The position numbers and the translations under genes were made by a program. Shown one piece after another: positions 713 to 42,411 of a DNA stretch of 42,411 nucleotides (its first letter is position 1; the number at the start of each line of letters is the position of its first letter). Under the pieces are notes generated by a model. The model worked only from the letters and a program-made list of their open reading frames with translations. It was not told the DNA's origin and searched no databases. The stretch is from the IMG/VR virus record IMGVR_UViG_3300043313_000303, positions 1 through 42,411 of that record, one strand, 5' to 3'. The stretch is from a virus.

Positions 713-982
713 TCACGCGTGGGCGTCAAGTTGCCCCTGTGGCCGAGGCTTGGGCCGGTGCCGCACGCCGAAGCCGAGATGCAGCATCAGCCGCAGCAGC
801 TTGACCGATGAAGCGGGCACCTCGGCCTCACCCGCGACGTAGCGCCGGGACGTGCGATCGGACACGCCGAGGAAGCGCGCGCCGCTGCTCTGGTTCAGGC
901 CCAGCGCGGCGAGCAGCCGCTCGTACTCGGCCGGGCTGATCGCCGCGACCTTGCGCCAGTCGGCGTAGTTTGGGTTTGCCAT
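713..982 (-). CDS. Helix-turn-helix transcriptional regulator
   Basis: This is an 89-residue DNA-binding protein, probably the phage switch or early regulator. Residues about 20-60 form a helix-turn-helix of the XRE/HigA-antitoxin style, with GARFLGVSDRTSRRYVAG as turn and recognition helix and a following VPASSVKLLRLML helix. The C-terminus is basic and proline-rich. ATG 982 has the ribosome site GGAGA, in the same AACGGAGACGAC context used by the gene at 15051. It is transcribed away from the gene at 1101 across a 118-base control region with facing promoters and operator-like repeats, the classical arrangement of an autoregulated repressor. Its gene ends by overlapping a GTG at 716. Confidence 0.8.
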   Translation of the reverse strand: MANPNYADWRKVAAISPAEYERLLAALGLNQSSGARFLGVSDRTSRRYVAGEAEVPASSVKLLRLMLHLGFGVRHRPKPRPQGQLDAHA

Positions 983-1007: not shown

Positions 1008-1036
1008 AATATGCCTGATATTCTGCACTAGGTCAA
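1008..1036 (-). promoter_or_regulatory. Leftward promoter of the regulator and possibly the late unit
   Basis: The leftward strand shows TTGACC (1036-1031), a 17-base spacer and CATATT (1013-1008), a good sigma-70-type match. An ACTAGG hexamer (1027-1032) overlaps the -35 box and recurs at 1053-1058 and, inverted, at 1068-1073. All genes to the left as far as the junction, and beyond it the late genes, run in this direction. Confidence 0.6.
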
Positions 1037-1045
1037 TTTGGACAC

Positions 1046-1075
1046 TTGACGGACTAGGACAAATAGGCCTAGTCT
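1046..1075 (+). promoter_or_regulatory. Rightward early promoter with operator TAGG-N9-CCTA
   Basis: TTGACG (1046-1051) and TAGTCT (1070-1075) are separated by 18 bases. Between them ACTAGG (1053-1058) and CCTAGT (1068-1073) form a perfect inverted repeat with a 9-base centre. The element TAGGACA-N4-GGCCTA and the following CTGCGTCATC leader are shared with the promoter at 14995-15050, so both are probably bound by the same protein. Confidence 0.65.
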
Positions 1076-1100
1076 GCGTCATCAACAACGGAGATACGCC

Positions 1101-1529
1101 ATGACCAAGTACACCGACGGCTCCCTGATCCGCACCAAGCAGACCTTCGGCGAGACGATCAGCGAAGGCCACACCGACTTCGGCCTGCTCGACGCCAAGG
1201 GCCGCAAGCTGGGCGCCAACTGGCGCATCTTCCGCATCACCGTGACGCCGGTTGGCGACGCGCCGTCGAACTGCGGCTGCATCTGCATGGAAAGCCCCGA
1301 CCTGACCGGCGAGCGCGTCGCGATCGCCCACACCGTCGCCCGCAACGGCGAACGCTTCGGTGGCGCAGGCTGCTGGCGCGAAGTCCACGCCGACGTCGCG
1401 TCCGCCGTCGCCGCGATCAACGCCAAGAACGCCAAGGCGCGCGCCCGCTACGCCCGCATGGCGGACGTCACCGCCCCCGGCCGCGAAGGCCCCGCCCTGC
1501 TCGACGCCGTCCTCCACGGGAGGGCATGA
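1101..1529 (+). CDS. Unknown early protein
   Basis: I do not recognise this 142-residue protein. It starts at ATG 1101 behind the ribosome site GGAGA and the operator-bearing early promoter. The middle contains NCGCICMESPD and a GGAGCWREV stretch, giving three cysteines; the C-terminal half is alanine-rich and helical (AVAAINAKNAKARARYARM). No signal peptide or membrane segment is seen. As the first gene after a regulated early promoter it may be an early host-directed or regulatory protein, but that is only position-based inference. Confidence 0.75.
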   Translation: MTKYTDGSLIRTKQTFGETISEGHTDFGLLDAKGRKLGANWRIFRITVTPVGDAPSNCGCICMESPDLTGERVAIAHTVARNGERFGGAGCWREVHADVASAVAAINAKNAKARARYARMADVTAPGREGPALLDAVLHGRA

Positions 1530-1531
1530 GC

Positions 1532-1903
1532 ATGGGCAGCGAAAACAACCCGTTCTACGAGGAGGCGCTCGACGCCCAGCGCCTCGCCGCCGACAGCTTC
1601 GCCCGCAACACCGCAAGGAAAACCATCATGGACGGCCTGCCCGACCTCGTGCTGCCGCAGGTCTCGATCAACGGCAGCCACCCCGACGACCTGCTCGCGC
1701 AGCAATCAGCCGTGATCACCGCGCTCGCCCAGCTCCAGCGCCGCATGGCCGCCGCCCGCCCGCACGGCCGCGACTACCAGTACCGCCCGGCCGAGTACGT
1801 CGCCGCGCGCTACGCATGGGCCGCGCGCGAGGACCTGCTGCTCGCGCTGCAGCAGGACCTCGTCAACCACGCCAAGGCGATCAGCCGCGCGAGCGCGCGT
1901 TAA
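1532..1903 (+). CDS. Unknown early protein
   Basis: This 123-residue, mostly helical protein has no recognised domain. Two ATGs (1526 and 1532) lie at the start; I favour 1532 because GGAGGG (1519-1524) is seven bases before it but only one base before 1526. Choosing 1526 adds two residues and makes an ATGA overlap with the upstream gene. It carries GRDYQYRPAEYVAARYAWAAREDLLLAL, split here only for its aromatic-rich helix. Its TAA overlaps by four bases the stop of the convergent gene at 1900. Confidence 0.7.
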   Translation: MGSENNPFYEEALDAQRLAADSFARNTARKTIMDGLPDLVLPQVSINGSHPDDLLAQQSAVITALAQLQRRMAAARPHGRDYQYRPAEYVAARYAWAAREDLLLALQQDLVNHAKAISRASAR

Positions 1904-5318: not shown

Positions 5319-5615
5319 TCAGGGCGCGGCGAGCAGGCGGTCAATATCCGCCGAATTGCGTACGAAGTAAACTTCAACACCTAGTGCCTTGAACCGATCG
5401 TAATACTGCTGCTGGTGTGGCGCCACGCGCCCGAAGCGCGGCCGCTTGATTTCCGCGAATATTATCCGCGGCCCCGGCAGCACGATTAATCGGTCAAAAA
5501 ATCCACGCTTGCCGACGCACATCACCTTCTCGCACACCCCGCCGAGCGCGACCACGCGCGCGACCAGCTCGGCCTCGACCGCGCGCTCCTTGACAATGGC
5601 TGATCGTCCATCCAT
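5319..5615 (-). CDS. VRR-NUC domain nuclease
   Basis: This is a 98-residue stand-alone VRR-NUC nuclease of the PD-(D/E)XK fold, a family that cleaves branched or flapped DNA. The order is EAELVARVVALGG with E14 or E16, then GFFDRLIV with D41, then FAEIKRP with E55 and K57, and PHQQQYYDRFKALG with Q68: the complete active-site set at normal spacing and length. It is the first gene of the leftward replication block, facing an HNH gene across 47 bases. The chosen ATG 5615 has a poor ribosome site; no better start is visible. Confidence 0.88.
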   Translation of the reverse strand: MDGRSAIVKERAVEAELVARVVALGGVCEKVMCVGKRGFFDRLIVLPGPRIIFAEIKRPRFGRVAPHQQQYYDRFKALGVEVYFVRNSADIDRLLAAP

Positions 5616-5662
5616 GCTGGCAGCAGAACATCGCGATTTAAAACTGGCAAGGTGAATTTAGC

Positions 5663-6214
5663 ATGGACGAACAGTGGCGCCCCGTCCTCGGCTTCGAGGA
5701 CTACTACGAAGTGTCCGACCAAGGCCGCGTTCGCGGGTTGGCCCGGACCCATGAGTACCGCGGCGGGGTCAGGCGCGTTCGCGCCAGATTGCTTGTGTTG
5801 ACCCCTGACGCCGATAAACACCACCGCACGCACTGCTATGTCGGCGTGATGCTATACGACGGCGGAAAGGCGTATCGTAAGCGCGTTCACAGCCTAGTTC
5901 TAGAGGCGTTCGTCGGCGCACGTCCGGCCCGCGCTGACGTGCGGCACCTCAACGGAGTTGGTAACGACAACCGCCTTGTAAATCTGGCGTGGGGGACGCG
6001 CGCAGAGAACTGTGCCGACCAAGTGCTGCACGGCACGCGCCGCCGAGGCGCGCGCGTAGTAAACGCCAAGTTGAACGAACGCGACATACCCAACATACGC
6101 GCCGAGTTGGCTGCTGGTGCCTCGCAGAGTGCGGTGGGGCGCCGGTACGGTGTCTCACAGAGCGCCATTTATTGCATCGCGAGAAAGGTTACGTGGTCTC
6201 ATGTCTCGTCATAG
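5663..6214 (+). CDS. HNH homing endonuclease (NUMOD4-HNH)
   Basis: The 183-residue protein starts with a NUMOD4-like segment (WRPVLGFEDYYEVSDQGRVR), then an HNH_3-type core: VHSLVLEAFVG, the DVRHLNGVGNDNRLVNLAWGT motif (H-N-N residues), then AENCADQ. A C-terminal helix-turn-helix (SAVGRRYGVSQSAIYCI) would add DNA specificity. Such free-standing genes are mobile and cleave phage DNA lacking them. It has visibly less biased codon use than its neighbours, a sign of transfer, and its end overlaps the next gene by 14 bases. Length and domain order are typical of an intact enzyme. Confidence 0.9.
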   Translation: MDEQWRPVLGFEDYYEVSDQGRVRGLARTHEYRGGVRRVRARLLVLTPDADKHHRTHCYVGVMLYDGGKAYRKRVHSLVLEAFVGARPARADVRHLNGVGNDNRLVNLAWGTRAENCADQVLHGTRRRGARVVNAKLNERDIPNIRAELAAGASQSAVGRRYGVSQSAIYCIARKVTWSHVSS

Positions 6215-7448
6215 CGCCATCGTCGGCGGCTCCACCAGTGGACGCCTGCTCGCCTGCCCCGCCAGCCTGTCCCGCAACCGCGCATTGCCCGCGACCGCCG
6301 ACGCGCCCTCCGAGTACGCCGAGGAAGGCACCGCCATGCACGCGGTCATGGACTACCTGATGATCCAGCGCGCCCACGGCGCGACGTCCCTCGACATCAG
6401 CGCCTCGCTCGGCAAGGTCTTTCACGATCGCCCGCTGACCGACGAGCACCTCGATACGATGGTGTACCCGGCGCTGGGGCACCTCCAGACGCTGGAGCAG
6501 GAATACGACACCGGCTGCGCCTTCGATGTGGTCGGCGTCGAGAGCCGCGTCACCTTCCCCGGCATCCCCGGCGCCTTCGGCACCGTCGACCTGATCCTGC
6601 AGAACGACCGCTTCACCATCTTGGTCGACTGGAAATTTGGCCAAGGCATCGGCGTGCGCACCGTCTACAGCGACGGGCAGGGCGAGATCGTCAATCCGCA
6701 GCTGATGTACTACGCCGCCGCCGCCCTCAAGACCAAGCCGCGGCTGTTCACCGGCCGCCGCATCGTCGTCGCCATCATCCAGCCGCGCTCGCTCGAACCG
6801 CTTACCTTCACCGAAGTGACCCGTCGCGAGCTGAAGATGTTCGTCGAGGACCTGCACAATTCCGTGCTCGCCGCGGTCGACCGCGACCCGCCGATGCGCC
6901 GCGGCGAGCACTGCCGCTTCGCCCCCTGCAAGATCGCCTGCCCGCTGTGGACCGGCGCCGTGCTCGACCTGACCGCGCTCAGGCCGGTCGAGCGGACGAC
7001 GGCGGTAAAGGGGCCGACGCCCTACGGCGACTATCTCGCCCGCGCCAAGGCGCTCACCGACACCGTGCTCCAGTTCAAGGGCGAGCTGGACGCACAGATG
7101 CACGCCTACCTCGAAAACGGCGGCACCATCCCCGGCTGGCGTCTCAAGGCCAAGGCGACGCGGCGTCAGTGGATCGACCCGAAGGTCGTTTCCGAGGGCC
7201 TGCGCGACATCGGCTTCGCGAAGGCGGAGATATGGCGCGAGCCCGAGCTGGTCACCTTCCAGTCCGCCGAGGCGACCGCCAAGAAGCTCGGCGTCGCCAT
7301 TCCCGACGAGCTGCGTGTCGCCCCGCCGCCGAGCGGCACCACGCTCGCCACCACCGACGACCCGGCACCGGTGGTCGAGCCGGCCGCGCTGGTCGAGAAA
7401 TTCGCCGCGTCACTGCGGCTTCTGCAGCAACAGCAGGCCGGCAAGTGA
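6201..7448 (+). CDS. DUF2800 family RecB/Cas4-like nuclease
   Basis: This 415-residue protein belongs to the phage DUF2800 family of PD-(D/E)XK nucleases. SEYAEEGTAMHAV (about 37-49), D130 in AFGTVDLIL, VDWKFGQG (D143, K145) and the NPQLMYYAAA helix form the RecB-type active site. Four cysteines, C19 and C238-C243-C247, match the one-plus-three iron-sulfur pattern of Cas4/AddB, so an Fe-S clamp is likely. The probable role is a 5' or 3' exonuclease making ssDNA for recombination. ATG 6201 fits the family's N-terminus (MSRHSAIVGGSTSGRLLACP); the frame is open further upstream but overlaps the HNH gene. It is followed 30 bases later by its usual partner type. Confidence 0.85.
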   Translation: MSRHSAIVGGSTSGRLLACPASLSRNRALPATADAPSEYAEEGTAMHAVMDYLMIQRAHGATSLDISASLGKVFHDRPLTDEHLDTMVYPALGHLQTLEQEYDTGCAFDVVGVESRVTFPGIPGAFGTVDLILQNDRFTILVDWKFGQGIGVRTVYSDGQGEIVNPQLMYYAAAALKTKPRLFTGRRIVVAIIQPRSLEPLTFTEVTRRELKMFVEDLHNSVLAAVDRDPPMRRGEHCRFAPCKIACPLWTGAVLDLTALRPVERTTAVKGPTPYGDYLARAKALTDTVLQFKGELDAQMHAYLENGGTIPGWRLKAKATRRQWIDPKVVSEGLRDIGFAKAEIWREPELVTFQSAEATAKKLGVAIPDELRVAPPPSGTTLATTDDPAPVVEPAALVEKFAASLRLLQQQQAGK

Positions 7449-7478
7449 CTGCCGGCCCCATGAAGAGGACTGCGAATT

Positions 7479-8267
7479 ATGTCTGATATCGTGAAACGTG
7501 GCGAGCAGCTGCCCGCCGACTACATCTCCCGCCTGATGTCCGGGATCGCGGAGAGCCGCGCCCAGACCATCGTCGCCGGCGGCAAGCCGTTCTTCCGCAT
7601 GTCCCGCTCCGGGACCTACATCTTCGGCCAGAGCAGCGAAGAGATGCAGGAGGGCTCGCGCTGGGCCGTCAACATCATGACCATGAGCCACGGCTGGAGC
7701 TGCTGGGTCGACGGCGGCCCCAATCAGGCCAATGCGCTCGCCGGCGAGGTCATGACCGCGATGACCAACCCGCTCCCGCCGCGGCCGGACCCGATCGGCG
7801 ACGCCGCCTACAAGGACCAGCGCAGCTTCGAGATGAAGTGCCTCGACGGGGCCGATCAGGGCACCGAGGTGATCTACAAGATCAACTCCGTCGGCGGCAT
7901 CCGCGCCGTCGCCGAGCTGCTCGACGCCATCCACGCCCAGCTGGCGCGCGCGCCGGCCTACCCCTGCCCGGTGCTGACCTTCACCTCGGACAGCTACCCG
8001 CACAAGAAGTGGGGCCAGATCTACGTCCCGATCTTCACCGTGGTGGGCTGGGCCGACATGAACGGCAACCTGCAGGGCGACGACCAGCTCGCCCTGCCGC
8101 TCGCCGATCGCGTCCCGACCACCGAGCCGACCCGCCCGGCCGCGGAACCGGCACGCAAGCGCAAGGAGCCGCTCGGAACGGCCCCCGCGGCCGCAGCGGC
8201 GCCCGTGCAGCCCGCCCCGACGGCGCAGACCCACGTCGGGCAGCGCCGCCGCCCGAGTGCTGCCTAG
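7479..8267 (+). CDS. Conserved phage protein, probable ssDNA-handling partner of the DUF2800 nuclease
   Basis: The 262-residue protein has a globular N-terminal 200 residues (PFFRMSRSGTYIFGQ, WAVNIMTMSHGWSCWVDGG, SVGGIRAVAELLDAI, DSYPHKKWGQIYVPIFTVVGW) and a disordered, Ala/Pro-rich tail. I recognise the pattern from proteins following DUF2800 nucleases in phage replication modules, where ssDNA-binding or annealing proteins usually sit. It has no named fold that I can see, so that role is inference from position. Start ATG 7479 has AGAGGA about ten bases upstream. Confidence 0.7.
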   Translation: MSDIVKRGEQLPADYISRLMSGIAESRAQTIVAGGKPFFRMSRSGTYIFGQSSEEMQEGSRWAVNIMTMSHGWSCWVDGGPNQANALAGEVMTAMTNPLPPRPDPIGDAAYKDQRSFEMKCLDGADQGTEVIYKINSVGGIRAVAELLDAIHAQLARAPAYPCPVLTFTSDSYPHKKWGQIYVPIFTVVGWADMNGNLQGDDQLALPLADRVPTTEPTRPAAEPARKRKEPLGTAPAAAAAPVQPAPTAQTHVGQRRRPSAA

Positions 8268-8290
8268 CGCCTTCCCTGTGTCAATCCGCG

Positions 8291-8327
8291 TGGTCCGCAA
8301 TGCGGACCATGCGGACCATGCGGAGAT
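8291..8327. promoter_or_regulatory. Palindrome and 9-bp tandem repeats before the XRE gene (operator)
   Basis: TGGTCCGCAATGCGGACCA (8291-8309) is a perfect palindrome of nine-base arms around one base. The right arm TGCGGACCA is repeated directly at 8310-8318, and a partial third copy (TGCGGA) starts at 8319. The array ends six bases before the start of a helix-turn-helix gene and contains its ribosome site, so it is a good candidate for autoregulatory binding. The palindrome could also fold in the mRNA. Confidence 0.65.
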
Positions 8328-8332
8328 CGTCC

Positions 8333-8578
8333 ATGCCGGCCGACGACCTGCCCTTCGCCGCTTTCCTGCGTGACCAGCGCGAGATACACGGCCTGACATT
8401 GCGCGAGGCGGGAGCGCGGATCGGCTGCACCAAGACCCACATTCTGGACCTCGAAGCGGGCCGTTCACACAATCCGAAGATCATGACGCTGGTGGCGCTG
8501 GCGCGCGCCTACCGCCTCGACGTTGGCGATCTGGCCCGCCGTGCCGCCGCAACGTGCGCCCCGGGCGTGCGGCGATGA
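8333..8578 (+). CDS. XRE-family helix-turn-helix regulator
   Basis: This 81-residue protein is one XRE/Cro-type domain: FLRDQREIHGLTLREAGARI, then GCTKTHILDLEAGRSHNPKI as turn and recognition helix, then LVALARAYRLDVGDL. ATG 8333 is chosen for the GGAG eight bases upstream; earlier in-frame ATGs lie inside the 9-bp repeats. Its end overlaps the DNA polymerase start as ATGA, so it may adjust polymerase expression as well as its own through the palindrome just upstream. Confidence 0.85.
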   Translation: MPADDLPFAAFLRDQREIHGLTLREAGARIGCTKTHILDLEAGRSHNPKIMTLVALARAYRLDVGDLARRAAATCAPGVRR

Positions 8579-10785
8579 ACGCTCGCACAAAAATGCATTT
8601 CGCACATGCGCCGACGGACCCGGAGCGTGCTTGGGGCCCGACGTTTCCCATTGAGAAAATTGGGCTTATTGATTTTGAGAGCCGCGGCCGGGTCGACATC
8701 GCGGCCGGCGCCTATCGTTACGCTACGGAAGCCGACGCGGTCGTGCTGTCCTACGCGATCGGCATGGGGCCGGTACGCCGAATAGCGGTGCCCACTTTCC
8801 CGGCCACGCTCGACATGGTCGACCTGCCGACCGAGTTCCTCGCATTTCACGCCAAGGTGATGACCGGAACCGGGATCTGGGCGGCGTGGAACGCTTCCTT
8901 CGACCGCGCCATCTGGAACTACGCCGCCACCGGCTTCCCGCTGCTGGCGCCGCACCAGATCATCGACGTGATGGCGCAAGCCGTGGCCAGCGGATTGCCG
9001 CCGGACCTCTCCGCCGCGGCAGTCGCGTCGCACTCGACCAAGAAGCTGGCCAGCGGACGCGAGCTGATCCGGCTGTTCTGCCTGCCCGACAGCACCGGCA
9101 CGCCGCAGAGCCACCCGGCCGAGTGGTCAGCCTTCCTCGACTACGCCGACCGCGACATCGACGCCATGCGCTCGGTGTTCCTCGGCACTCGCCAGCTGGC
9201 GCTGGCCGAGTGGCGCGAATACTGGGCCATGGAGGCGATCAACGACCGCGGCGCGGCGATCGACCTGCCGATGGTCGAGGCCGCCAGCCGGCTCGCCGCC
9301 GAGGACAAGGAACGCGCCAAGGCCGAGCTGCGCGCCATCACCGGCGACCCCCAGATGACCGTCGACATGGTCAAGCGGCTGACCGCGTGGCTTCTCGACC
9401 GGCTGCCCGAAGAGGGCCGGGCGATCATCACCAAGCGCGACGAGGAGGTCGACGAGGACGGCGTGGTCATCAGGCCGGCCAAGCACGTGCTCACCCGGCG
9501 GCAGGTCGAGCGCCTGATCGCCTACGTCAAGGACCTTAATTCCCCCGAATTAACGTCCGCCTTGCGCCTGCTGCAGATCAGGCTCTACGGCGGCTCCAAG
9601 ACCCCGGCCAAGTTCGCCAAGATGCTCGCCAGTCACGTCGACGGCGTGCTCTACGGCCAGTACGTGTTCAACGGCGCCGCCCAAACAGGTCGGGCGTCGA
9701 GCCGCGGCGTGCAGGTGCACAATCTGGCGCGCGACACGCTGCCAAACGAGCTGGCGGTGATCGATGCGATCATCGGGGGGTGCAAATATGACGACCTTTC
9801 TGCACCCCCACAGGGGTGCGCAGGCGCCCAGCCTGTGCACCCCGACCCGGTGGCGCGCCAGCTCTCGCTGCTGATCCGCCCCGCCTTCGTGCCGGCCGGC
9901 GATAACGTGTTCGTCTGGAGCGACTGGAGCCAGATCGAGGCGCGCGTGCTGCCGTGGCTGGCCGGCGACGACCCCGGCGCGCTGGCCCGGCTGCAGGTGT
10001 TCCGCGACGTCGACGCCGACCCGACCGTGCCGGACCTCTACACCCGCACCGCCGCGGTGCTGTCGCACCTGCCGATCGAGCAGGTGACCAAGCCGGTGCG
10101 CCAGCGCGGCAAGGTCGCCGAGCTGGCGCTCGGCTTCGGCGGCGGGCTCGGCGCGCTGCAGAGCATGGCGGCCGGCTACGGCCTGCATCTGGAGGACGCC
10201 GAGGCGCGCCAGACCGTCGAGGACTGGCGCGCGGCCAACCCGTGGTGCGTCGAGTTCTGGGAAGAGCTGGAGGACGCGGTCGAGCAGGCGATGCGCCTGC
10301 CGGGGCTGCCGCAGCGCGCCGGGCGCGTCGTCTACACCTTCGCGCGTGAGTACCTCGGCGGCTCGCTGTTCTGCCAGCTGCCCTCGGGACGCTTCCTCAC
10401 CTACCGCAACCTGCACTACGAGCCGGTCGAGGAGAAGGACGACGACGGGCAGACGCTGCGTACGGTGCGCCAGCTGCGCTTCTCGCGCGGCCACGGCCGC
10501 GTCAAGCTGTGGCGCGGCATGCTGTGCGAAAACGTCGTGCAGGCGGTCGCCGCCGACGTCCTGCGTGGCACGCTGCGGCGGCTCGTCGACAGCGACTATT
10601 GCGTGCGCCTGCACACCCACGACGAAGTGCTGGTCGAGACAAACCTCTCAGAGGCTGCGTCAACCTCTGAGAGGTTGCGCGAAGTCATGCAGCGCGGCTT
10701 CGACTGGAGCGAGGGCCTGCCGCTGATGAGCGAGGAGACGCTCGGCTATTACTACACCAAGCATGAGGGGAGCCACGGGCTATGA
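8575..10785 (+). CDS. Family A DNA polymerase with 3'-5' exonuclease domain
   Basis: This 736-residue enzyme is the replicative polymerase. The N-terminal exonuclease has the DxE motif LIDFES (D33, E35) and WAAWNASFDRAIW. The polymerase motifs are A, VWSDWSQIEARVL (catalytic D450), B, RQRGKVAELALGFGGG (K513), and C, HTHDEVLVE (H682, D683, E684), where motif A has Trp in place of the usual Tyr, as in many phage relatives. Two loops carry DNA palindromes that look inserted in frame: codons 401-423 between the domains and codons 690-701 after motif C. ATG 8575 overlaps the XRE stop; the TGA overlaps an HNH start, so the module is translationally linked. Confidence 0.95.
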   Translation: MNARTKMHFAHAPTDPERAWGPTFPIEKIGLIDFESRGRVDIAAGAYRYATEADAVVLSYAIGMGPVRRIAVPTFPATLDMVDLPTEFLAFHAKVMTGTGIWAAWNASFDRAIWNYAATGFPLLAPHQIIDVMAQAVASGLPPDLSAAAVASHSTKKLASGRELIRLFCLPDSTGTPQSHPAEWSAFLDYADRDIDAMRSVFLGTRQLALAEWREYWAMEAINDRGAAIDLPMVEAASRLAAEDKERAKAELRAITGDPQMTVDMVKRLTAWLLDRLPEEGRAIITKRDEEVDEDGVVIRPAKHVLTRRQVERLIAYVKDLNSPELTSALRLLQIRLYGGSKTPAKFAKMLASHVDGVLYGQYVFNGAAQTGRASSRGVQVHNLARDTLPNELAVIDAIIGGCKYDDLSAPPQGCAGAQPVHPDPVARQLSLLIRPAFVPAGDNVFVWSDWSQIEARVLPWLAGDDPGALARLQVFRDVDADPTVPDLYTRTAAVLSHLPIEQVTKPVRQRGKVAELALGFGGGLGALQSMAAGYGLHLEDAEARQTVEDWRAANPWCVEFWEELEDAVEQAMRLPGLPQRAGRVVYTFAREYLGGSLFCQLPSGRFLTYRNLHYEPVEEKDDDGQTLRTVRQLRFSRGHGRVKLWRGMLCENVVQAVAADVLRGTLRRLVDSDYCVRLHTHDEVLVETNLSEAASTSERLREVMQRGFDWSEGLPLMSEETLGYYYTKHEGSHGL
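9776..9843. repeat. Paired hairpins inside the polymerase gene
   Basis: GGGGGTGCA (9776-9784) and TGCACCCCC (9801-9809) are perfect inverted copies. Immediately after, GGGGTGCGCAGG (9813-9824) pairs with CCTGTGCACCCC (9832-9843) with one mismatch. The segment encodes a linker between exonuclease and polymerase domains, so it looks like a palindromic element tolerated in frame. Confidence 0.75.
10642..10676. repeat. Perfect 13-bp inverted repeat inside the polymerase gene
   Basis: AACCTCTCAGAGG (10642-10654) and CCTCTGAGAGGTT (10664-10676) are perfect inverted copies with a nine-base loop. Each arm is itself almost self-complementary (CCTCT/AGAGG). It encodes a surface segment soon after catalytic motif C. 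Confidence 0.85.
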
Positions 10786-11399
10786 CGCCGGAAAACAGGG
10801 AAAAATTGCGCGTGGCTAATACTACGCACGGCATGAGCCACACGGCGATCTATCGCCAGTGGCACGCGATGATCACACGCTGTACAAACCCCAACATAAA
10901 TCACTGGCACCGCTACGGCGGGCGCGGCATCACGGTGTGCGATGCGTGGCGCGATTTCACTGTTTTCTTTTCCGATATGGGTGCGAGTTGGCGAGCTGGT
11001 CTCACGATCGAGCGGATCAACAACGATGAAGGCTACGCACCGGGAAACTGCAAGTGGGCGACGCGGCAAGAGCAGGCGCGTAACAGGCGTCGCTTACGTA
11101 TGCTTGATACGCCATGGGGGCGTGTAACTTTGGTCGAAGCTGCGGAACGCAGCGGCATTTGCGCCACGACGATTGCGTCTCGGATCAAAGCGAAAAGCGA
11201 CCCATTTATTTTGCACAATGCCAATCTTGGCAGGAAGCACGCAAGCTACGCGCGCAGCACCGATCGCTACCTCGACACGCCATGGGGTCGGATGAACCTA
11301 GCAGACACCGCACGACGTGCCGGGCTCACACGAGATGCTTTGCTGTGGCGGCTCGGCAAGGGACTGAGCGTCGCTGAAATTGTCGGGGCGCAAGCATGA
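10782..11399 (+). CDS. HNH endonuclease with two C-terminal HTH repeats
   Basis: The 205-residue protein is a free-standing phage HNH nuclease: RYGGRGITVCDAWRDF, DMGASWRAGLTIERINNDEG and YAPGNCKWATRQEQARNRR are hallmarks of the family. After it come two similar DNA-reading units, LDTPWGRVTLVEAAERSG and LDTPWGRMNLADTARRAG, each followed by a recognition-like helix. Less biased codon use marks it as a newcomer between polymerase and helicase. Both ends use ATGA overlaps, so insertion preserved or rebuilt the coupling. Probably a homing endonuclease; its cut site may be in a nearby replication gene of HNH-free relatives. Confidence 0.9.
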   Translation: MTPENREKLRVANTTHGMSHTAIYRQWHAMITRCTNPNINHWHRYGGRGITVCDAWRDFTVFFSDMGASWRAGLTIERINNDEGYAPGNCKWATRQEQARNRRRLRMLDTPWGRVTLVEAAERSGICATTIASRIKAKSDPFILHNANLGRKHASYARSTDRYLDTPWGRMNLADTARRAGLTRDALLWRLGKGLSVAEIVGAQA

Positions 11400-12841
11400 G
11401 ACCGGCGTCTGATCTCAGAGAATATCAGCAGAGAATAGCTACTTTTTTATATGAGCATGATGAAGGTCTTTGCGTGCTGCGCCCCGGCGGCGGCAAGACC
11501 GTCGCCGCGCTGACCGCGATCTGCGACCTGCTCGACGATGGTGTGATCCGTCACGCGCTGGTGATCGCGCCCAAGCGGGTCGCGCGCGTGGTGTGGCCGG
11601 ACGAGCTGGCGCAGTGGGAGCACACCGCCAAGCTGCTGACCTGTCAGGTGCTCGACGGCTCGCCCGAGAAGCGGCTGGCGGCGCTGAAAAATTCGATCGA
11701 CTACCAGCTCACCATCGTCGGGCTCGACGTGGTGCAGTGGCTGATGGAGGCGCTCCTAGACTTCCATACTGACCACGCGCTCTATGACCTGCTGGTGATC
11801 GACGAGGCGAGCCGCCTGCGCAACCCGTCGGGCGAGCGCGCCAAGGCGCTGGCGAAGTATGCGCACCACTGGCGCATGATCTGGGGCCTGAGCGGAACGC
11901 TGCGCCCGTCGAGCGCGCTGGATTTATTCATGCCGGCGCGCGTGGTGACCCGCGGCAAGCTGTGGGGGCGTTCGTTCTGGCAGTGGCGCAAGGAACATTT
12001 CTATCCCGTAGACTACAGCGGCTACGACTGGCGCGCTCTGCCCGGCGCCGAGGAGAAGCTGAACGCCGCCTTGGCGCCGCTCACCGTGACGGTGGCCGAG
12101 GGCGAGATGCCGACGGTCACCCCGACGATCGTGCTCGACAAGGTCGAGCTGCCGCCGGCCGCGCGCAAGCAGTACCGCGACATGCAGGCGCGCCTGATGG
12201 CAGACGCCGGCGACGAGCGGGTGATCGCCGGCTCCGCCGCGATCGCCACCGGCAAGCTGGCGCAGATGGCGAACGGCTTCGTCTACGGCGAGGGCGCGGA
12301 CATCCCGGCGAACGACGTCCACGGCATCCACAACGCCAAGCGCGACTGGCTGCGCGATCTGATCGAGGAGGCGACCGCGCCGACCTTGATCGTCTACGAG
12401 TATCAGGCCGACTGGCGCATGCTGGAGCACGAGGTCGTGCTGGCGACCAAGCAGGACTTCCGCTACCTCGGCGCCGGCGTATCCGACAGGCAGGCCGCCG
12501 CCAATATCGCGGACTGGAACGCCGGGCGCCTGCGCTTCATGGGCCTGCACCCGGCGAGCGGCGGGCACGGGCTCAACCTGCAGCACGGCGGCGCCGACAT
12601 GGCGTGGATAAGCCCGACGTGGTCGCCCGAGTTGTGGGAGCAGACCATCGCGCGCCTCGCGCGCCCGGGCCAGACGCGGCCCGTCGTGGTGCGCGTGTGC
12701 GTCGCGACCGACACGGTCGACGAGCTGAAGCTCGACCGCGTCCACTTCAAGATGGGCGCACAGGAGGCGTTCGAGGCTTGGCTGCGCCGTTGGCACGCGG
12801 ATGCTGCTCGTCAAAATGCGCCAGCGTGCCCCGCAGCGTGA
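11396..12841 (+). CDS. SNF2/DEAD-like superfamily 2 helicase
   Basis: This 481-residue ATPase belongs to the phage SNF2-like helicases that accompany family A polymerases. Motif I is LRPGGGKT (K34), II is VIDEAS (D136-S139, followed by RLRNP), III is LSGTL (166-169), and the C-terminal lobe has GLNLQHGGADMAWISPTWSPELWEQTIARLARPGQ, quoted in parts as motifs V-VI. Length is normal and no inactivating change is seen. ATG 11396 overlaps the HNH stop. The last 95 bases overlap a convergent gene on the other strand, an unusually long antisense overlap. Confidence 0.93.
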   Translation: MRPASDLREYQQRIATFLYEHDEGLCVLRPGGGKTVAALTAICDLLDDGVIRHALVIAPKRVARVVWPDELAQWEHTAKLLTCQVLDGSPEKRLAALKNSIDYQLTIVGLDVVQWLMEALLDFHTDHALYDLLVIDEASRLRNPSGERAKALAKYAHHWRMIWGLSGTLRPSSALDLFMPARVVTRGKLWGRSFWQWRKEHFYPVDYSGYDWRALPGAEEKLNAALAPLTVTVAEGEMPTVTPTIVLDKVELPPAARKQYRDMQARLMADAGDERVIAGSAAIATGKLAQMANGFVYGEGADIPANDVHGIHNAKRDWLRDLIEEATAPTLIVYEYQADWRMLEHEVVLATKQDFRYLGAGVSDRQAAANIADWNAGRLRFMGLHPASGGHGLNLQHGGADMAWISPTWSPELWEQTIARLARPGQTRPVVVRVCVATDTVDELKLDRVHFKMGAQEAFEAWLRRWHADAARQNAPACPAA

Positions 12842-13028
12842 CCGGGATCGCGTCGATGATCTTGTCGCGCGTGGTGTCGTCGGTGCGCGCCAGCATGGTG
12901 GCGATCGCGCGGATGAACGTGAGCAGCACCACCGCCTTGGCCTTGTCGCGTATGACCGGCTCGACCTGCTTGTAGAGGTCATCGACCATGCGGTTGACGA
13001 GGGGGGTGGCGTCCGGCGTCGGTTTCAT
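12747..13028 (-). CDS. Unknown helical protein at the end of the regulatory cassette
   Basis: The 93-residue protein is helical (LVNRMVDDLYKQVEPVIRDKAKAVVLLTFIRAIATML), with a basic, proline-rich tail. ATG 13028 overlaps the GcrA stop as ATGA. Its last 95 bases lie opposite the helicase's C-terminal codons; both frames show reasonable coding bias, so both are kept. No family recognised. Confidence 0.65.
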   Translation of the reverse strand: MKPTPDATPLVNRMVDDLYKQVEPVIRDKAKAVVLLTFIRAIATMLARTDDTTRDKIIDAIPVTLRGTLAHFDEQHPRANGAAKPRTPPVRPS

Positions 13029-13528
13029 GTGCTTGCCCTGTCGCGCACCATCCCGACCATCCGGCCGCAGCTGATCCCGGTGTGATAGGCGCAGTAGGTC
13101 TTGCCCGCGGTCGGCGCGCCGCAGAACAGGAACGGCACCCGGTCGCCGTGCGGCCAGCGGCAGGTGTTGTCGGTGAGCTGGAACAGCGTGATGCGGGTCC
13201 CCGGCGCCGGGCGCGGCACCTCCATCACCTTCCAGCGCGGCAGCACGCACGGCACCGGCTCGGGCGCGACCGCGGCCGGCGCCTCGGCCACCAGCGTCAC
13301 GGCGCGCTTGCGCTTGTCGCCGCGGAACACCTTGCGCGGCCGTTGCGCCAGTTTCATCCTGCGGGCCTTCCCGATGCAGGCGTTCTTCGACACTTCCATA
13401 CCCCATTCCGCCGACAGTTGCGCGGCGATCACGTCGAACGACAGCTTCTTGTTGGCGTGCAGCGCGCGCAGCCGCGCCACGCGGTATTCGTCCCAGATGA
13501 TCTCGCCGGGGGCGCGGTGGTGCTTCAT
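13025..13528 (-). CDS. GcrA-family cell cycle regulator
   Basis: GcrA is an alphaproteobacterial factor that binds sigma-70 RNA polymerase and activates promoters with methylated GANTC sites. This 167-residue copy has the N-terminal HTH region (LRALHANKKLSFDVIAAQLS, VSKNACIGKARRMKL), a variable basic linker, and the C-terminal signature NTCRWPHGD ... FLFCGAPTAGKTYCAYH. The opening segment differs from host GcrA, where a W-T-D-E motif is usual; here it is IIWDEYRVARL. Phage copies are known and are thought to redirect host or phage transcription. ATG 13528 overlaps the upstream HTH stop as ATGA. It sits with two other DNA-binding proteins. Confidence 0.87.
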   Translation of the reverse strand: MKHHRAPGEIIWDEYRVARLRALHANKKLSFDVIAAQLSAEWGMEVSKNACIGKARRMKLAQRPRKVFRGDKRKRAVTLVAEAPAAVAPEPVPCVLPRWKVMEVPRPAPGTRITLFQLTDNTCRWPHGDRVPFLFCGAPTAGKTYCAYHTGISCGRMVGMVRDRAST

Positions 13529-13728
13529 CGCTTCTTTCCGTTGCTCATGTAGGCGCGCACCCGGTCGATCGTGGTCAGCCGCGGCAGGCGCCCGGACTGC
13601 AGCCGCGGGATCAGGTGGCCGTCATTGGCCGCCAGTATCCCGAATTTTGTCCTGTCGAGATTGTTCCGCGCGCGGTAGTCGTTGATCTCGTCGATCAGGC
13701 GGCGCACGTCAGGGTGTAGTTTTCGCAT
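13525..13728 (-). CDS. Small HTH-like DNA-binding protein
   Basis: This 67-residue protein reads LIDEINDYRARNNLDRTKFG, then ILAANDGHLIPRLQSGRLPR, then LTTIDRVRAYMSNGKKR. The NDGHLIPRLQSG..PRLTTIDRV part resembles the small alphaproteobacterial HTH proteins in which a recognition helix precedes a TIxxVxxY helix. ATG 13728 is preferred over 13734 because GAGGA then lies six bases upstream. It overlaps the LuxR-type gene by 20 bases and GcrA by four. Confidence 0.7.
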   Translation of the reverse strand: MRKLHPDVRRLIDEINDYRARNNLDRTKFGILAANDGHLIPRLQSGRLPRLTTIDRVRAYMSNGKKR

Positions 13729-13912
13729 TCCCATTCCTCGTGTAGAGCAGCGCCAGCTCGGTGCGGTTGCGCACCGCAAAGCGGGTGTAGAGCAAGTGCA
13801 GCATCATCTTGACGGTGCCCTCGCCCACGTTCATGGCGCGCGCGATCGCCTTGTTCGGGTGCCCGGCGACGACGTGGTCGAGCAGCTCGCGCTGGCGCTT
13901 GGTCAGCCTCAT
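13709..13912 (-). CDS. LuxR-type (GerE) helix-turn-helix protein
   Basis: The 67 residues make up one GerE domain without a sensor: LTKRQRELLDHVVAGHPNKA, IARAMNVGEGTVKMMLHLLY, then TRFAVRNRTELALLY. The recognition helix follows the canonical G-N-x-x-I/E-G-T-V-K pattern. Free-standing GerE domains can activate or compete at host promoters. ATG 13912 overlaps the stop of the small gene at 13909 as ATGA. Confidence 0.85.
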   Translation of the reverse strand: MRLTKRQRELLDHVVAGHPNKAIARAMNVGEGTVKMMLHLLYTRFAVRNRTELALLYTRNGNAKTTP

Positions 13913-14067
13913 TCAACCACCTCGTAGTCGCGCCGGAACGCCGCTTCAATTGCCTCGGCGATCTGGACCGCGAGGTAGGTCAGACCGTTCGGCTGGGTGG
14001 CGCGGTTGTCCGCGTAATGGCACAAGAACAGATGCCACTCGTCCGCGTTTGATCCCTGCGGTCTCAC
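13909..14067 (-). CDS. Unknown 52-residue protein
   Basis: A short gene fills the gap between its neighbours: GTG 14067 overlaps the upstream TGA as GTGA, and its own TGA (13911-13909) overlaps the LuxR-type start as ATGA. The product reads as coding (ADEWHLFLCHYADNRATQPN then a helix LAVQIAEAIEAAFRRDY). No family recognised. The double coupling and G/C-biased third positions argue that it is real. Confidence 0.7.
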   Translation of the reverse strand: MRPQGSNADEWHLFLCHYADNRATQPNGLTYLAVQIAEAIEAAFRRDYEVVE

Positions 14068-14249
14068 TTCCCGCCCTCCCGCACAAGTCCCGTGAGTGCC
14101 GAGCGCATGATGTCGTAAAGGCGATCGATCTTGCGCTGTCCTTCGTCGCTATCCGGATGCGGCATGTGCGGGCGCCCGATGCGGCAACGCTCGTAAGTCT
14201 CGCGAGCGATAAGGTGCATTTCGGCGTCTTGCTCTGTGCTAATCATCAT
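14064..14249 (-). CDS. Unknown 61-residue protein
   Basis: The protein is polar and helical: MHLIARETYERCRIGRPHMP followed by QRKIDRLYDIMRSALTGLV. Two adjacent ATGs (14249, 14246) follow the strong site GGAGGAAGG; either may start it. It is embedded in the chain of overlapping leftward genes. No function is visible. Confidence 0.65.
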   Translation of the reverse strand: MMISTEQDAEMHLIARETYERCRIGRPHMPHPDSDEGQRKIDRLYDIMRSALTGLVREGGK

Positions 14250-14443
14250 CCTTCCTCCCGCGAAATACTCGTCTCCGCGCCGGGCGCAGACCGAAACCGT
14301 CGCGGATGGGATGTCTCGGAACGCTGCAGCGGAGCGACGAACTGCCCCCACTGAAAGTTCTCGCGCCACTGCGTCTCGCGCACGCCCGGCACCGACACGC
14401 TGAGATACGCGCCGTCCTTTTGGTCGTAGCGGTACGGGTTCAT
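14246..14443 (-). CDS. Unknown 65-residue protein
   Basis: It starts at ATG 14443 with the ribosome site GAGGTGA and ends in TGATGATG at the next start. The N-terminal half (MNPYRYDQKDGAYLSVSVPG, VRETQWRENFQWGQFVAPLQ) is aromatic-rich and probably folded; the rest is basic and serine-rich. No family recognised. Confidence 0.65.
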   Translation of the reverse strand: MNPYRYDQKDGAYLSVSVPGVRETQWRENFQWGQFVAPLQRSETSHPRRFRSAPGAETSISREEG

Positions 14444-14799
14444 GGCTTCACCTCTTGATCCTCGCCGTCGCGCAGCATCAGCTCCAGCCGGGCGAGCGCG
14501 TTCCACGCCACCTGCGCGGCGTGCGCGAGGCCGGTCTCGGGGTCGACCGGGCCGTCGATCTCCTCGCCGGCCAGATGGCGCATCAGCGCGTCGCCGTAGC
14601 GGTCGATGCCGTCCGGCACGCTCTGCCAGCCCTTCCACGTATACTTGGCTGCGCCGTGTTGCGAGATGTCGGACACCGCGCCGAGCGCGCGCGGGAAATA
14701 CTGCACCACGCCGCGCAGGATCGGGCTCTTGCCGGCGTCCAGCTTGGCGCCGGGCTGGCGCTGGGGGATGCCGTGCGGGTCGCGTTCCGGCTCTCGCAT
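14440..14799 (-). CDS. dATP/dGTP diphosphohydrolase-like protein (DUF5664, MazZ-like)
   Basis: This 119-residue protein matches the DUF5664 / dATP-dGTP diphosphohydrolase N-terminal family: AKLDAGKSPI, FPRALGAVSDISQHGAAKYT, YGDALMRHLAGEEIDGPVDP, then ETGLAHAAQVAWNALARLEL. Acidic residues in the helix pairs would bind metal and dNTP. Relatives hydrolyse dATP or dGTP and in Z-DNA phages help replace adenine by 2-aminoadenine. PurZ is absent here, so general nucleotide-pool control is more likely. It is first in the regulatory cassette; ATG 14799 faces the rightward unit at 14867. Confidence 0.82.
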   Translation of the reverse strand: MREPERDPHGIPQRQPGAKLDAGKSPILRGVVQYFPRALGAVSDISQHGAAKYTWKGWQSVPDGIDRYGDALMRHLAGEEIDGPVDPETGLAHAAQVAWNALARLELMLRDGEDQEVKP

Positions 14800-14830
14800 G
14801 CGTTAACCTCGTGTTAGCGAATGGATGCTA

Positions 14831-14858
14831 TCCCATTGATGGCTTAACCGCAATGGGA
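14831..14858. promoter_or_regulatory. Inverted repeat covering the ribosome site of a small membrane-protein gene
   Basis: TCCCATTG (14831-14838) and CAATGGGA (14851-14858) are perfect inverted copies with a 12-base loop. The right arm contains the GGGA of the ribosome site for the ATG at 14867, so in RNA the hairpin would hide it; in DNA it could be an operator between divergent units. Confidence 0.55.
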
Positions 14859-14866
14859 GAACTGCC

Positions 14867-14980
14867 ATGACCACGATCGCCGCCATCGCTTGGGGCCTGT
14901 CGTTTGCCTGCCTCGCCTGCGTCGTCAACCTGTGCATCATCTCGACGATCCGCGGCCGGCCGGAAGAAAATGACGATTGA
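14867..14980 (+). CDS. Small single-span membrane protein
   Basis: This 37-residue product starts at ATG 14867 with GGGAGA six bases upstream. Residues about 4-27 form one hydrophobic helix with three cysteines (AAIAWGLSFACLACVVNLCI), then a short basic and acidic tail (RGRPEENDD). An inner-membrane place is likely. It could be an early lysis-control, exclusion or envelope peptide; none is shown. The IR over its ribosome site suggests tight control. Confidence 0.6.
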   Translation: MTTIAAIAWGLSFACLACVVNLCIISTIRGRPEENDD

Positions 14981-14994
14981 TGGGAAAATAGCCA

Positions 14995-15024
14995 TTGACA
15001 GGGTAGGACAGACTGGCCTATACC
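14995..15024 (+). promoter_or_regulatory. Second early promoter sharing the operator of the 1046 promoter
   Basis: TTGACA (14995-15000), an 18-base spacer and TATACC (15019-15024) form a strong sigma-70-type promoter. Its spacer has TAGG (15004-15007), nine bases and CCTA (15017-15020), the same architecture as at 1055-1071. The longer match is TAGGACA-N4-GGCCTA, then CTGCGTCATC and ACAACGGAGA in both. One DNA-binding protein probably controls both promoters. Confidence 0.75.
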
Positions 15025-15050
15025 TGCGTCATCGACAACGGAGACGACAG

Positions 15051-15428
15051 ATGATCACCATGCAGAACCAGAGCGTAGGCTCCTTCGACGACCAGACCCA
15101 CGAATATGTCGAAGTGTCGTGGGACGAGACGATGGTGCAGGCGTTCGCCTTCCACAGCGTCGGCACCCACGGCGGCGGCCCGAAGGCCGCCTACCACCGC
15201 GTCCACGGCATCAGCGTCGAGGCGCGCTTCGTGTTCGCCGCGATCAAGGCGTTCGCCAACTGCCAGCTGATGGCGGTCGCTCCCGACGGGCAGAAGTTCT
15301 TCGTGACGTGGGTCATCCGCCCGGTGGACGGCACCGAGGAGCTGCGCGCCGGCGGCAAGTGGGGCAAGGTGATCGCCCGCATGCGCCGCACCGGCTACGT
15401 GCAGCAGCCGCAGCGGGAGGTCGCGTGA
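15051..15428 (+). CDS. Unknown early protein
   Basis: This 125-residue protein starts at ATG 15051 behind GGAGA and the shared operator-promoter. It appears folded (HEYVEVSWDETMVQAFAFHS, VEARFVFAAIKAFANCQLMA, FFVTWVIRPVDGTEELRAGG). No family recognised. The frame is open upstream, but those codons contain the promoter and lack bias. Its TGA overlaps the next ATG (TGATG). Confidence 0.75.
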   Translation: MITMQNQSVGSFDDQTHEYVEVSWDETMVQAFAFHSVGTHGGGPKAAYHRVHGISVEARFVFAAIKAFANCQLMAVAPDGQKFFVTWVIRPVDGTEELRAGGKWGKVIARMRRTGYVQQPQREVA

Positions 15429-15664
15429 TGCGGTTCTACAGCGTCGACACCGCTTTTTTCACCACCAAGCGCGAGGCGGCCGCGGCCGCCCGCCACGCGG
15501 CCAAGACCTCGTACCACAACGTCGAGGTCGATCTGGTCGACGTGCGCGCCGATCGCGCCACGCTTTTGCGCCTGCTCAACGATGAGGGCGGCTTCGTGAA
15601 CACGCTCAAGCGCGCGGTCTACGTCGCCGCGGCGAAACTGGAACGCGGAAAGGATGACGTGTGA
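15428..15664 (+). CDS. Unknown 78-residue early protein
   Basis: The start at ATG 15428 and the stop at 15664 are both shared with neighbours through TGATG overlaps. The sequence MRFYSVDTAFFTTKREAAAA and the ADRATLLRLLNDEGGFVNTL segment suggest a small alpha/beta fold. No family recognised. Confidence 0.7.
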   Translation: MRFYSVDTAFFTTKREAAAAARHAAKTSYHNVEVDLVDVRADRATLLRLLNDEGGFVNTLKRAVYVAAAKLERGKDDV

Positions 15665-35997: not shown

Positions 35998-36089
35998 CAG
36001 AGCGCCCCCACGGCCCAGAACACGATCGCAGCGCAGACCACCGCCAGCGCGAGCAGCGTGTAGATCGCAACGTGATCGCCCTCGATCAT
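35997..36089 (-). CDS. 30-residue single-span membrane peptide
   Basis: ATG 36089 overlaps the upstream TGA by one base and its TGA overlaps the next ATG by one base. The product is MIEGDHV followed by one hydrophobic helix (AIYTLLALAVVCAAIVFWAV) and GAL. Its tight coupling supports reality despite the size. Possibly a lysis or envelope peptide; unproven. Confidence 0.55.
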   Translation of the reverse strand: MIEGDHVAIYTLLALAVVCAAIVFWAVGAL

Positions 36090-37105
36090 CACAGTCGTCC
36101 CGGAATGTAGGCGCGCCGTCCGAAGTTGAGGACGCCGGGCGGCGGCAGCAGCGGCGCGCCGCGGTCGACCTCCAGCACGGCGACGCTGGTCGTCACCATG
36201 ATCGCGAGCGGCGACGCGGTCAAAACAATATCGCCGGCCGGCGGCGCCGTCGCGACGATCAGGTCGGCCGATCCGGTCGCGATCGTGACCGGGAGCCGGA
36301 TGCCACTGAGGACGTAGTTGTCCTGCGTCACGCCGACGGTGAGCGTGGCGGTCTTGAAGCTGGCGGTGACCGGCAGCACCGTGCCGGTCAGGACGAAGGC
36401 GTCCGAGATGACCCCGACACGCAGGTCCGCGGTCTTGAAGCTGGCGGTGACCGACAGCGTCGTGGCGACGATCTGGTTGCCGCTCGACTTGACCAGATTG
36501 GCGGTCTTGAAGCTGAGCGTGACCGGCAGCTTGGCGGACGTCAGCCGCCACGCCGAGCGCAGCGTGGCAGTCTTCGGCGCGACGGTGACCGAGAGCGCGG
36601 AGGATGTCAGCCGGCGCCCGGCCGACAGCGTGGCGGTCTTGGGGCTGACGGTGACCGACAGCTTGGCGGATGTCAGCCGCCGCCCGAGCAGCAGCGCCGC
36701 GGTCTTGGGGCTGACGGTGACCGGCAGCGGCGTGCCGGCGACCCTGCGGCCGGAGCCAATCGACGAGGTCTTGAACGAGGCCGTGACCGCCAGCGTCGTG
36801 CCGGTCAGGATATAGCCGCGCCGGATCTTCAGGTCGGCGGTCTTGGGGCTGACCGTGACGCCAAGCGTCGTGGATGTCAGGCGGAAGTCGCGGTGCGCCG
36901 AGAGGCTGGCGGTCTTGAAGCTGACCGTGACGCCAAGCGTCGAGCCGGTGAGCTTGTAATTGCGCTGGATCTTGAGGTTCGCCGTCTGCGGCGTGACGGT
37001 GACCGCGAGCGTCCCGGTCGTTTGCCCGAGCTGGCCGTCCCAGTGCGCCGCGTCCCACTTGCCGCGGTCCCATCGCTCCGGCACCACTGGCTTGACGAAG
37101 GACAT
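36089..37105 (-). CDS. Twelve-repeat beta protein of the virion region
   Basis: After a short N-terminus with tryptophans (ERWDRGKWDAAHWDG), the 338-residue protein is a chain of about 12 units of 22-29 residues with the pattern T-(G/S)-x-x-L-x-VTVS-(P/F)-KTA-x-L-x-x-x-R. Units 5-8 are nearly 22 residues exactly and are 66 bases apart in DNA. Each unit has two beta-strand-like stretches, so a solenoid or fibre is plausible. The gene lies between decoration-like and internal protein genes. A structural or adhesive role is likely; the exact part is unknown. Confidence 0.75.
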   Translation of the reverse strand: MSFVKPVVPERWDRGKWDAAHWDGQLGQTTGTLAVTVTPQTANLKIQRNYKLTGSTLGVTVSFKTASLSAHRDFRLTSTTLGVTVSPKTADLKIRRGYILTGTTLAVTASFKTSSIGSGRRVAGTPLPVTVSPKTAALLLGRRLTSAKLSVTVSPKTATLSAGRRLTSSALSVTVAPKTATLRSAWRLTSAKLPVTLSFKTANLVKSSGNQIVATTLSVTASFKTADLRVGVISDAFVLTGTVLPVTASFKTATLTVGVTQDNYVLSGIRLPVTIATGSADLIVATAPPAGDIVLTASPLAIMVTTSVAVLEVDRGAPLLPPPGVLNFGRRAYIPGRL

Positions 37106-42141: not shown

Positions 42142-42354
42142 TCAGGCGCCCGGGGCGGGCGCCACGCCGGCCGCAGGCTTGGGGCACAAGGCGGCGCGGC
42201 GCCCTGCGGCCGCGCTCTCGGCGAGGAGCACGCGGCCGGTTTTAGTGGGCGGTTTACGGGCTGGATCAGCAGACCGGCTAAAAGGATTAACGGTAATACC
42301 AGAAAAGGGTTTAACTAAATCATCGGGCGTTCCAGCGACAGTTGGCCTCGCCAC
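42142..42354 (-). CDS. Uncertain small gene that crosses the contig junction
   Basis: From GTG 42354 the frame gives 70 residues (ARPTVAGTPDDLVKPFSGIT, VNPFSRSADPARKPPTKTGR) and stops one base before the terminase start. Because 42343-42411 equals 1-69, the frame can be followed through the junction, open back to an ATG at 138, for 112 residues. Only the last 30 codons carry the genome's usual third-position bias, and no good ribosome site is seen. It could be a real terminase-leader gene or an open frame in a control region. Confidence 0.4.
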   Translation of the reverse strand: MARPTVAGTPDDLVKPFSGITVNPFSRSADPARKPPTKTGRVLLAESAAAGRRAALCPKPAAGVAPAPGA

Positions 42355-42411
42355 CTCCCGCTCTCGATTGGTACCATTTACGATCGAATGGGGGTGGGGA
42401 TTAGCCAGCCC
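42343..42411. repeat. Terminal direct repeat, right copy
   Basis: This is the exact second copy of positions 1-69. One copy should be removed when the genome is drawn as a circle. Confidence 0.97.

Follow-up and report, generated by a model that had tools for sequence, protein, structure and literature searches.

Two distant phage promoters share a KorC/Aca1-type operator, probably read by a small regulator encoded beside one of them

The window analysed here is the whole of IMG/VR virus record IMGVR_UViG_3300043313_000303, positions 1-42,411 (42,411 nt). Two of its promoters, P1 and P2, carry the same inverted repeat in their spacers, and the best-supported reading is that they form a two-promoter regulon under the 89-amino-acid protein encoded at 713-982. 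As judged from its sequence, the system is of a known kind, that of the KorC/Aca1-type repressors, found here in a phage with the regulator gene divergent and with two promoters 14 kb apart. With sites and repressors of this kind, plasmids (KorC) and other phages (Aca1) shut off genes that fight host defence. The first-pass annotation called both promoters early, and we infer the same. The features are as follows.

713-982, minus strand: regulator gene; 89-aa helix-turn-helix (HTH) protein of the KorC/Aca1 type (P0001), recognition helix SDRTSRRYV
1008-1036, minus strand: putative promoter of the regulator gene, read from the sequence; -35 TTGACC at 1031-1036, 17-bp spacer, -10 CATATT at 1008-1013
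1029-1045, no strand: secondary degenerate operator TAGGTCAATTTGGACAC, covering the -35 box of the predicted regulator promoter; third-best operator-matrix site in the window
1046-1075, plus strand: promoter P1; -35 TTGACG at 1046-1051, N18, -10 TAGTCT at 1070-1075
1055-1071, no strand: operator O1, TAGGACAAATAGGCCTA, 17 bp, TAGG-N9-CCTA
1076-1100, plus strand: P1 leader with ribosome-binding site (..GCGTCATCAACAACGGAGA..), from the alignment of upstream regions
1101-1529, plus strand: first P1 gene, 142 aa; candidate anti-defence protein with homologues in sister phages only
1526-1903, plus strand: second P1 gene, 125 aa, without family match
14995-15024, plus strand: promoter P2; -35 TTGACA at 14995-15000, N18, -10 TATACC at 15019-15024
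15004-15020, no strand: operator O2, TAGGACAGACTGGCCTA, an exact fit to TAGGNCA-N3-TGNCCTA
15025-15050, plus strand: P2 leader with ribosome-binding site (..GCGTCATCGACAACGGAGA..), from the alignment of upstream regions
15051-15428, plus strand: first P2 gene, 125 aa, without family match
15428-15664, plus strand: second P2 gene, 78 aa
15664-16059, plus strand: third P2 gene, 131 aa

The genes of both operons are predictions of our own gene caller. The first-pass annotation stated that P1 and P2 agree in the -35 box, in a TAGG-N9-CCTA repeat within the spacer and in the leader, and this is confirmed. In a comparison of the 100 bases before every predicted gene of the window, the regions upstream of 1101-1529 and 15051-15428 came out at the top of 1,313 pairs, with a score of 49 (the next pair scored 36). 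The leader common to both, CTGCGTCATC(A/G)ACAACGGAGA, follows directly after the operator and aligns with small gaps. It is also correct that the promoters resemble each other more than the genes they drive: the proteins of 1101-1529 and 15051-15428 show no similarity beyond that of shuffled sequences (they score 30, the shuffle mean is 27.6, and 82 of 300 shuffles score at least as high). O1 has A for T at position 11 of the consensus TAGGNCA-N3-TGNCCTA, which was derived from sites of further viral contigs, and fits it otherwise. The -10 boxes of P1 and P2 overlap the right half-site of the operator; at both promoters a 17-bp spacer, with the -10 box moved by one base, is equally possible.

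Rather than occurring at many random places, the exact TAGG-N9-CCTA motif is present twice in the 42.4-kb window, and each copy (O1 and O2) lies in a promoter spacer. With the -35 box included (TTGAC-N4-TAGG-N9-CCTA) and up to two mismatches allowed, the O1 and O2 promoters are still the only matches; the shuffle mean is 0.15, and one of 100 shuffles reaches two. TAGG-N9-CCTA alone is not enriched in the window at one mismatch (6 found, 2.98 expected), so promoter context matters. The count of two operators given in the first-pass annotation stands for exact sites and has to be extended by a third, weaker one, at 1029-1045 over the -35 box of the regulator gene, which is a predicted autoregulation site. 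On sequence evidence, then, the operator is carried by P1 and P2, plus the weaker site at the regulator promoter.

The 713-982 protein appears to be a remote homologue of KorC that is also related to Aca1. Comparison of the phage regulator profile with the plasmid KorC profile by hhalign gave a probability of 95.8% and an E-value of 8e-9, and an HMM built from plasmid proteins of motif loci placed 713-982 above all other proteins of the window (E 2.5e-4). KorC and 713-982 are alike around the recognition helix, and Arg43 and Arg46 do not vary in either of two alignments (23 and 24 members). When a profile of phage and plasmid members was compared with the PDB, Aca1 was the first match (E 7.5e-7); a phage-only profile matched Aca1 more weakly (E 0.005). 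The AlphaFold2 model of the protein (pLDDT 80) is an HTH fold resembling HigA2, MqsA, Aca1, Aca2 and Aca10, every Foldseek E-value being at least 0.001. The homology with KorC has to be called remote, because plain tblastn of the protein against plasmids gave no match at 1e-3. A plasmid-only profile with a loose first filter also misses the protein in a genome scan. Scans for close homologues of the regulator yielded few: a scan of viral contigs returned one relative, and the same search with the regulator of another record, G004, matched its own contig and no other.

Our picture of the KorC operator draws on IncP-1 motif loci, on a primer from work on plasmid RA3 and partly on general knowledge. 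A scan of a bacterial genome collection for TTGACA-N3-TAGGNCA-N3-TGNCCTA gave 36 loci, and in 33 of the 36 fetched KorC is encoded within about 8 kb. The majority are klcA/kle promoters of IncP-1 type, with the form gtttagctaaagtgc-TTGACAGGT-TAGGACATTTTGTCCTA; one of them corresponds to an annotated IncP plasmid carrying klcA, klcB, korC and kleA. In plasmid RA3 KorC is the main global regulator, and a primer in the RA3 paper contains TAGGCCAAATCGGCCTA (PMC7414963). Since the bacterial loci mostly encode KorC and the RA3 primer holds TAGGCCAAATCGGCCTA, the phage operator is of the KorC type. The KorA operator GTTTAGCTAAA, typical beside IncP-1 promoters, is absent at P1 and P2.

Dozens of phage contigs carry the promoter with its operator. 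The strict motif pattern was found in further viral contigs, several of them with at least three copies before start codons. The motif pattern was found in 34 viral DNA stretches and the reversed pattern in 17; multiple copies per contig were seen with the motif pattern only. The first-pass annotation had suggested scanning related phages, and the outcome favours its reading: of 38 viral records with the motif, 24 have a KorC-like gene (E<1e-9), and of 17 reversed-motif records none. Because the profile behind this count includes some of those very proteins, the fair test is the plasmid-only KorC profile, which finds 14 of the 38 and none of the 17 controls (Fisher p=0.002), with the reservations that near-duplicate records (L005/L009, L066/L072, L073/L081) make the counts not fully independent and that the controls differ from the motif records in size and probably in composition. 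No clear regulator is seen in roughly a third of the motif-bearing records; some of these are fragments and some are probably chance hits. L003/L008 (TAGGTAGGTGATGCCTA) and L011 appear to be chance matches or to belong to other systems. An extreme array is found in L111 (IMGVR_3300023063_000005), where at 5601-14935 about 17 TAGG-N9-CCTA promoter units with near-identical leaders stand within 17 kb, most of them before a small gene; no clear KorC homologue was found in L111.

The position of the regulator gene, divergent beside P1 as first described, recurs in L012, G004, L066 and G028. In these four records and the window a strong site lies 71-91 bases, and a weaker one 30-51 bases, before the regulator start codon, so that the weaker site of the window has counterparts at a similar position in all four.

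A sister phage, G039 (IMGVR 3300020016_000017), is collinear with the window, with DNA mostly 95-98% identical over the structural region. Its regulator is only 52% identical to the 713-982 protein and has the helix SERTLRRYAS. TAGG-N9-CCTA, present twice in the window, does not occur in G039; TGCC-N5-GGCA (operator sequence TGCCAAATTGGCA) occurs there exactly twice, at corresponding places in the P1 spacer and upstream of the regulator, and not at all in the window. The -35/-10 frame and leader of P1 are kept in G039, and where they align the P1 gene products of the two phages share about 87% identity. The operator change thus goes with the regulator rather than with the gene. We regard the pair as a natural specificity switch, a change in the regulator being matched by a change in its operators.

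Control of P2 is not conserved, because the P2 locus of G039 holds a different gene (303 aa) under a different promoter repeat, together with its own small HTH gene. The sister P2 locus (L109 5936-7130) has the promoter TTGACACCCTGTGTCAGGCGTGCCATACAGGGT with the repeat ACCCTGT-N14-ACAGGGT, the 303-aa gene, in which there is a CxxCxGxG motif, and an HTH gene of 64 aa; it may be a second pair of repressor and operator, independent of the first. A similar gene of 303 aa, likewise with CxxCxGxG, stands behind a TAGG operator in G028.

The operators might be read by another phage protein or by a host protein, 713-982 merely adjoining P1. The window does encode at least two further HTH proteins. One is an XRE-type protein at 8333-8578 (PHROG_8, transcriptional regulator), which was not found in L012, G004 or G039; the other is a small LuxR-like protein at 13709-13912, judged by eye, of which G039 and G004 also have a copy. 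That G039, without TAGG sites, is also without an 8333-8578 homologue would fit the XRE-like protein as reader. However, L012 and G004 possess the operator and no such homologue, and we rejected this candidate for that reason. As to other readers in general, it is the KorC-like gene that accompanies the motif in unrelated phages and in plasmids, and it is the divergence of 713-982 that tracks the operator change in G039. We therefore consider a different reader very unlikely.

The first-pass annotation left open whether the 713-982 protein represses or activates its two promoters. The regulon itself is upheld by co-occurrence and co-variation. As for the sign of control, repression is much more likely, because the operator occupies the spacer and extends into the -10 box and because KorC and Aca1, to which the protein is related, act as repressors. 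Some regulators, those of the MerR type, bind in the spacer and activate by a twist of the DNA, and an activator at the spacer palindrome could in principle turn on P1 and P2 in the same way. But no twist would be needed here, since the spacers are 17-18 bp and the -35 boxes near consensus; with the overlap of the -10 box and the repressing homologues also against it, activation seems to us about as improbable as a different reader. Very unlikely too is that O1 and O2 are copies left by a recent duplication of a promoter-leader cassette, with an incidental palindrome and no common regulation: the similarity does run into the leader, and other phages repeat leaders of their own, but the palindrome is kept across phages with wholly different leaders, matches the operator of characterised repressors and is replaced in G039 by another palindrome while the flanks stay.

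We hold it highly probable, then, that the 713-982 protein is an autoregulated repressor of the KorC/Aca1 type and that two small early operons are active when the DNA enters the cell and are then shut. The protein would bind as a dimer to the 17-bp palindrome TAGGNCA-N3-TGNCCTA. P1 and P2 would be strong promoters for the host polymerase, and bound repressor would exclude RNA polymerase at the -10 box. When DNA enters a cell that holds no repressor, both promoters would fire and give a burst of small products; as repressor accumulates, the P1 and P2 operons would be shut together. The weaker, half-degenerate operator over the -35 box of its own divergent promoter would let the repressor limit its own level. 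Such a course would parallel the zygotic induction of KorC-controlled IncP genes and the transient expression of Aca-controlled anti-CRISPRs. For the former, klcA and the kle genes are strongly induced in new transconjugants, and the zygotic induction of KorC-controlled klcA is 224-fold (PMC7314908).

What might the two operons encode? Their products gave no match that counts in Pfam, PHROG or NCBIfam, so that KlcA/ArdB is not supported as an identity for them. Scans of viral contigs gave two relatives for the P1 protein and none for the P2 protein; the first P2 gene has one weak tblastn match, in Rhizobium phage RL2RES. The predicted structure of the P1 protein is of low confidence (pLDDT 49). 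In other phages the genes driven by the operator include two of the ArdC anti-restriction type, DUF932, DUF7227, a PAPS-reductase-like gene and DUF6011 with a zinc-finger motif. The ArdC-type genes (L007 4113-4988 and L009 4075-4962) come from two related lineages of phages and follow the operator directly. For the P1 and P2 products, a part in early anti-defence or host takeover is probable, anti-defence being our leading guess and no more than that.

The rest of the window is that of a phage. It encodes terminase, portal, major head protein, DNA polymerase, primase/helicase and exonuclease; no tRNA genes were found in it, and no integrase among the proteins scanned. Because of an exact 69-base direct terminal repeat (1-69 and 42343-42411) the record is probably complete, a circular or terminally redundant genome. 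Degenerate tandem repeats with units of 66-72 bases occupy 36332-37011, within the gene 36089-37105. The gene at 14440-14799 receives the PHROG labels 'endolysin; inhibits RNA polymerase' and 'dATP/dGTP pyrophosphohydrolase' together, and the label looks unreliable.

A broader suggestion can be made, on which we ourselves lean slightly towards doubt. KorC, Aca1, the AcrIF24 tail and many regulators of environmental phages may constitute one superfamily that reads 17-bp TAG..CTA spacer palindromes and mainly gates anti-defence genes. If correct, the motif would find such genes, and the four or five P1 and P2 proteins would be new anti-defence proteins. The operator is specific enough for collection-wide scans and would thus offer a direct way to list candidates; the scan has already yielded the two ArdC genes. 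The findings also link the plasmid KorC regulon, Aca1 and the multi-promoter regulons of uncultured phages, and we came upon no paper that joins the three.

We know several systems with which that of the window can be compared. In the KorC regulon of IncP-1 (RK2/RP4, R751) and IncU (RA3) plasmids the frame is the same, TTGACA with the 17-bp TAGGNCA-N3-TGNCCTA in the spacer, and, as in the phage, several promoters of the kil-kor regulon are under one small HTH repressor. The recognition helices are homologous (GDRTIRRWV in plasmid KorC, SDRTSRRYV in 713-982). The phage system differs in sitting in a phage genome, in driving genes other than klcA or kle, in a homology seen by profile only, and in its divergent regulator gene, whereas IncP-1 korC lies inside the klcA operon. 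From the titles and abstracts of the matches listed among open-access papers mentioning both, no link between KorC and anti-CRISPRs is apparent.

Aca1 of Pseudomonas phage JBD30 is likewise a small HTH protein, related by profile. Aca proteins bind repeats in core promoters (PMC9410906), and published Aca1-binding DNA contains TAGGCACAATGTGCCTA, that is, TAGG-N9-CCTA (PMC9410881); we find TAGGCACAATGTGCCTA in JBD30 just upstream of acrF1, in the acr promoter. The outer half-sites and the spacing agree with those of the phage operator, and in both cases the inverted repeat lies in the core promoter. Yet aca1 is downstream of acr in one operon, while the regulator gene of the window is transcribed away from P1, lies 14 kb from P2 and, unlike that of Aca1, would serve two promoters far apart. 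The window has no known acr gene.

The plasmid KorC profile has as its first PDB match the C-terminal HTH domain of AcrIF24 (E 5.5e-5). The AcrIF24 site, TAGCTCGATCCGAGCTA, is a 17-bp 7-3-7 repeat between -35 and -10 (PMC9001735); KorC-type, Aca1 and AcrIF24 sites are all 17-bp 7-3-7 repeats starting with TAG. The inner half-site of AcrIF24 is different, and its HTH tail is fused to an anti-CRISPR domain, in contrast to the stand-alone small protein of the phage. Finally, immunity repressors of temperate phages, such as P22 C2, share the HTH fold, the palindromic operator and switches of specificity between sisters. The window differs from these in having neither an integrase (among the genes scanned) nor a clustered multi-operator immunity region, and its regulator would instead control small accessory operons.
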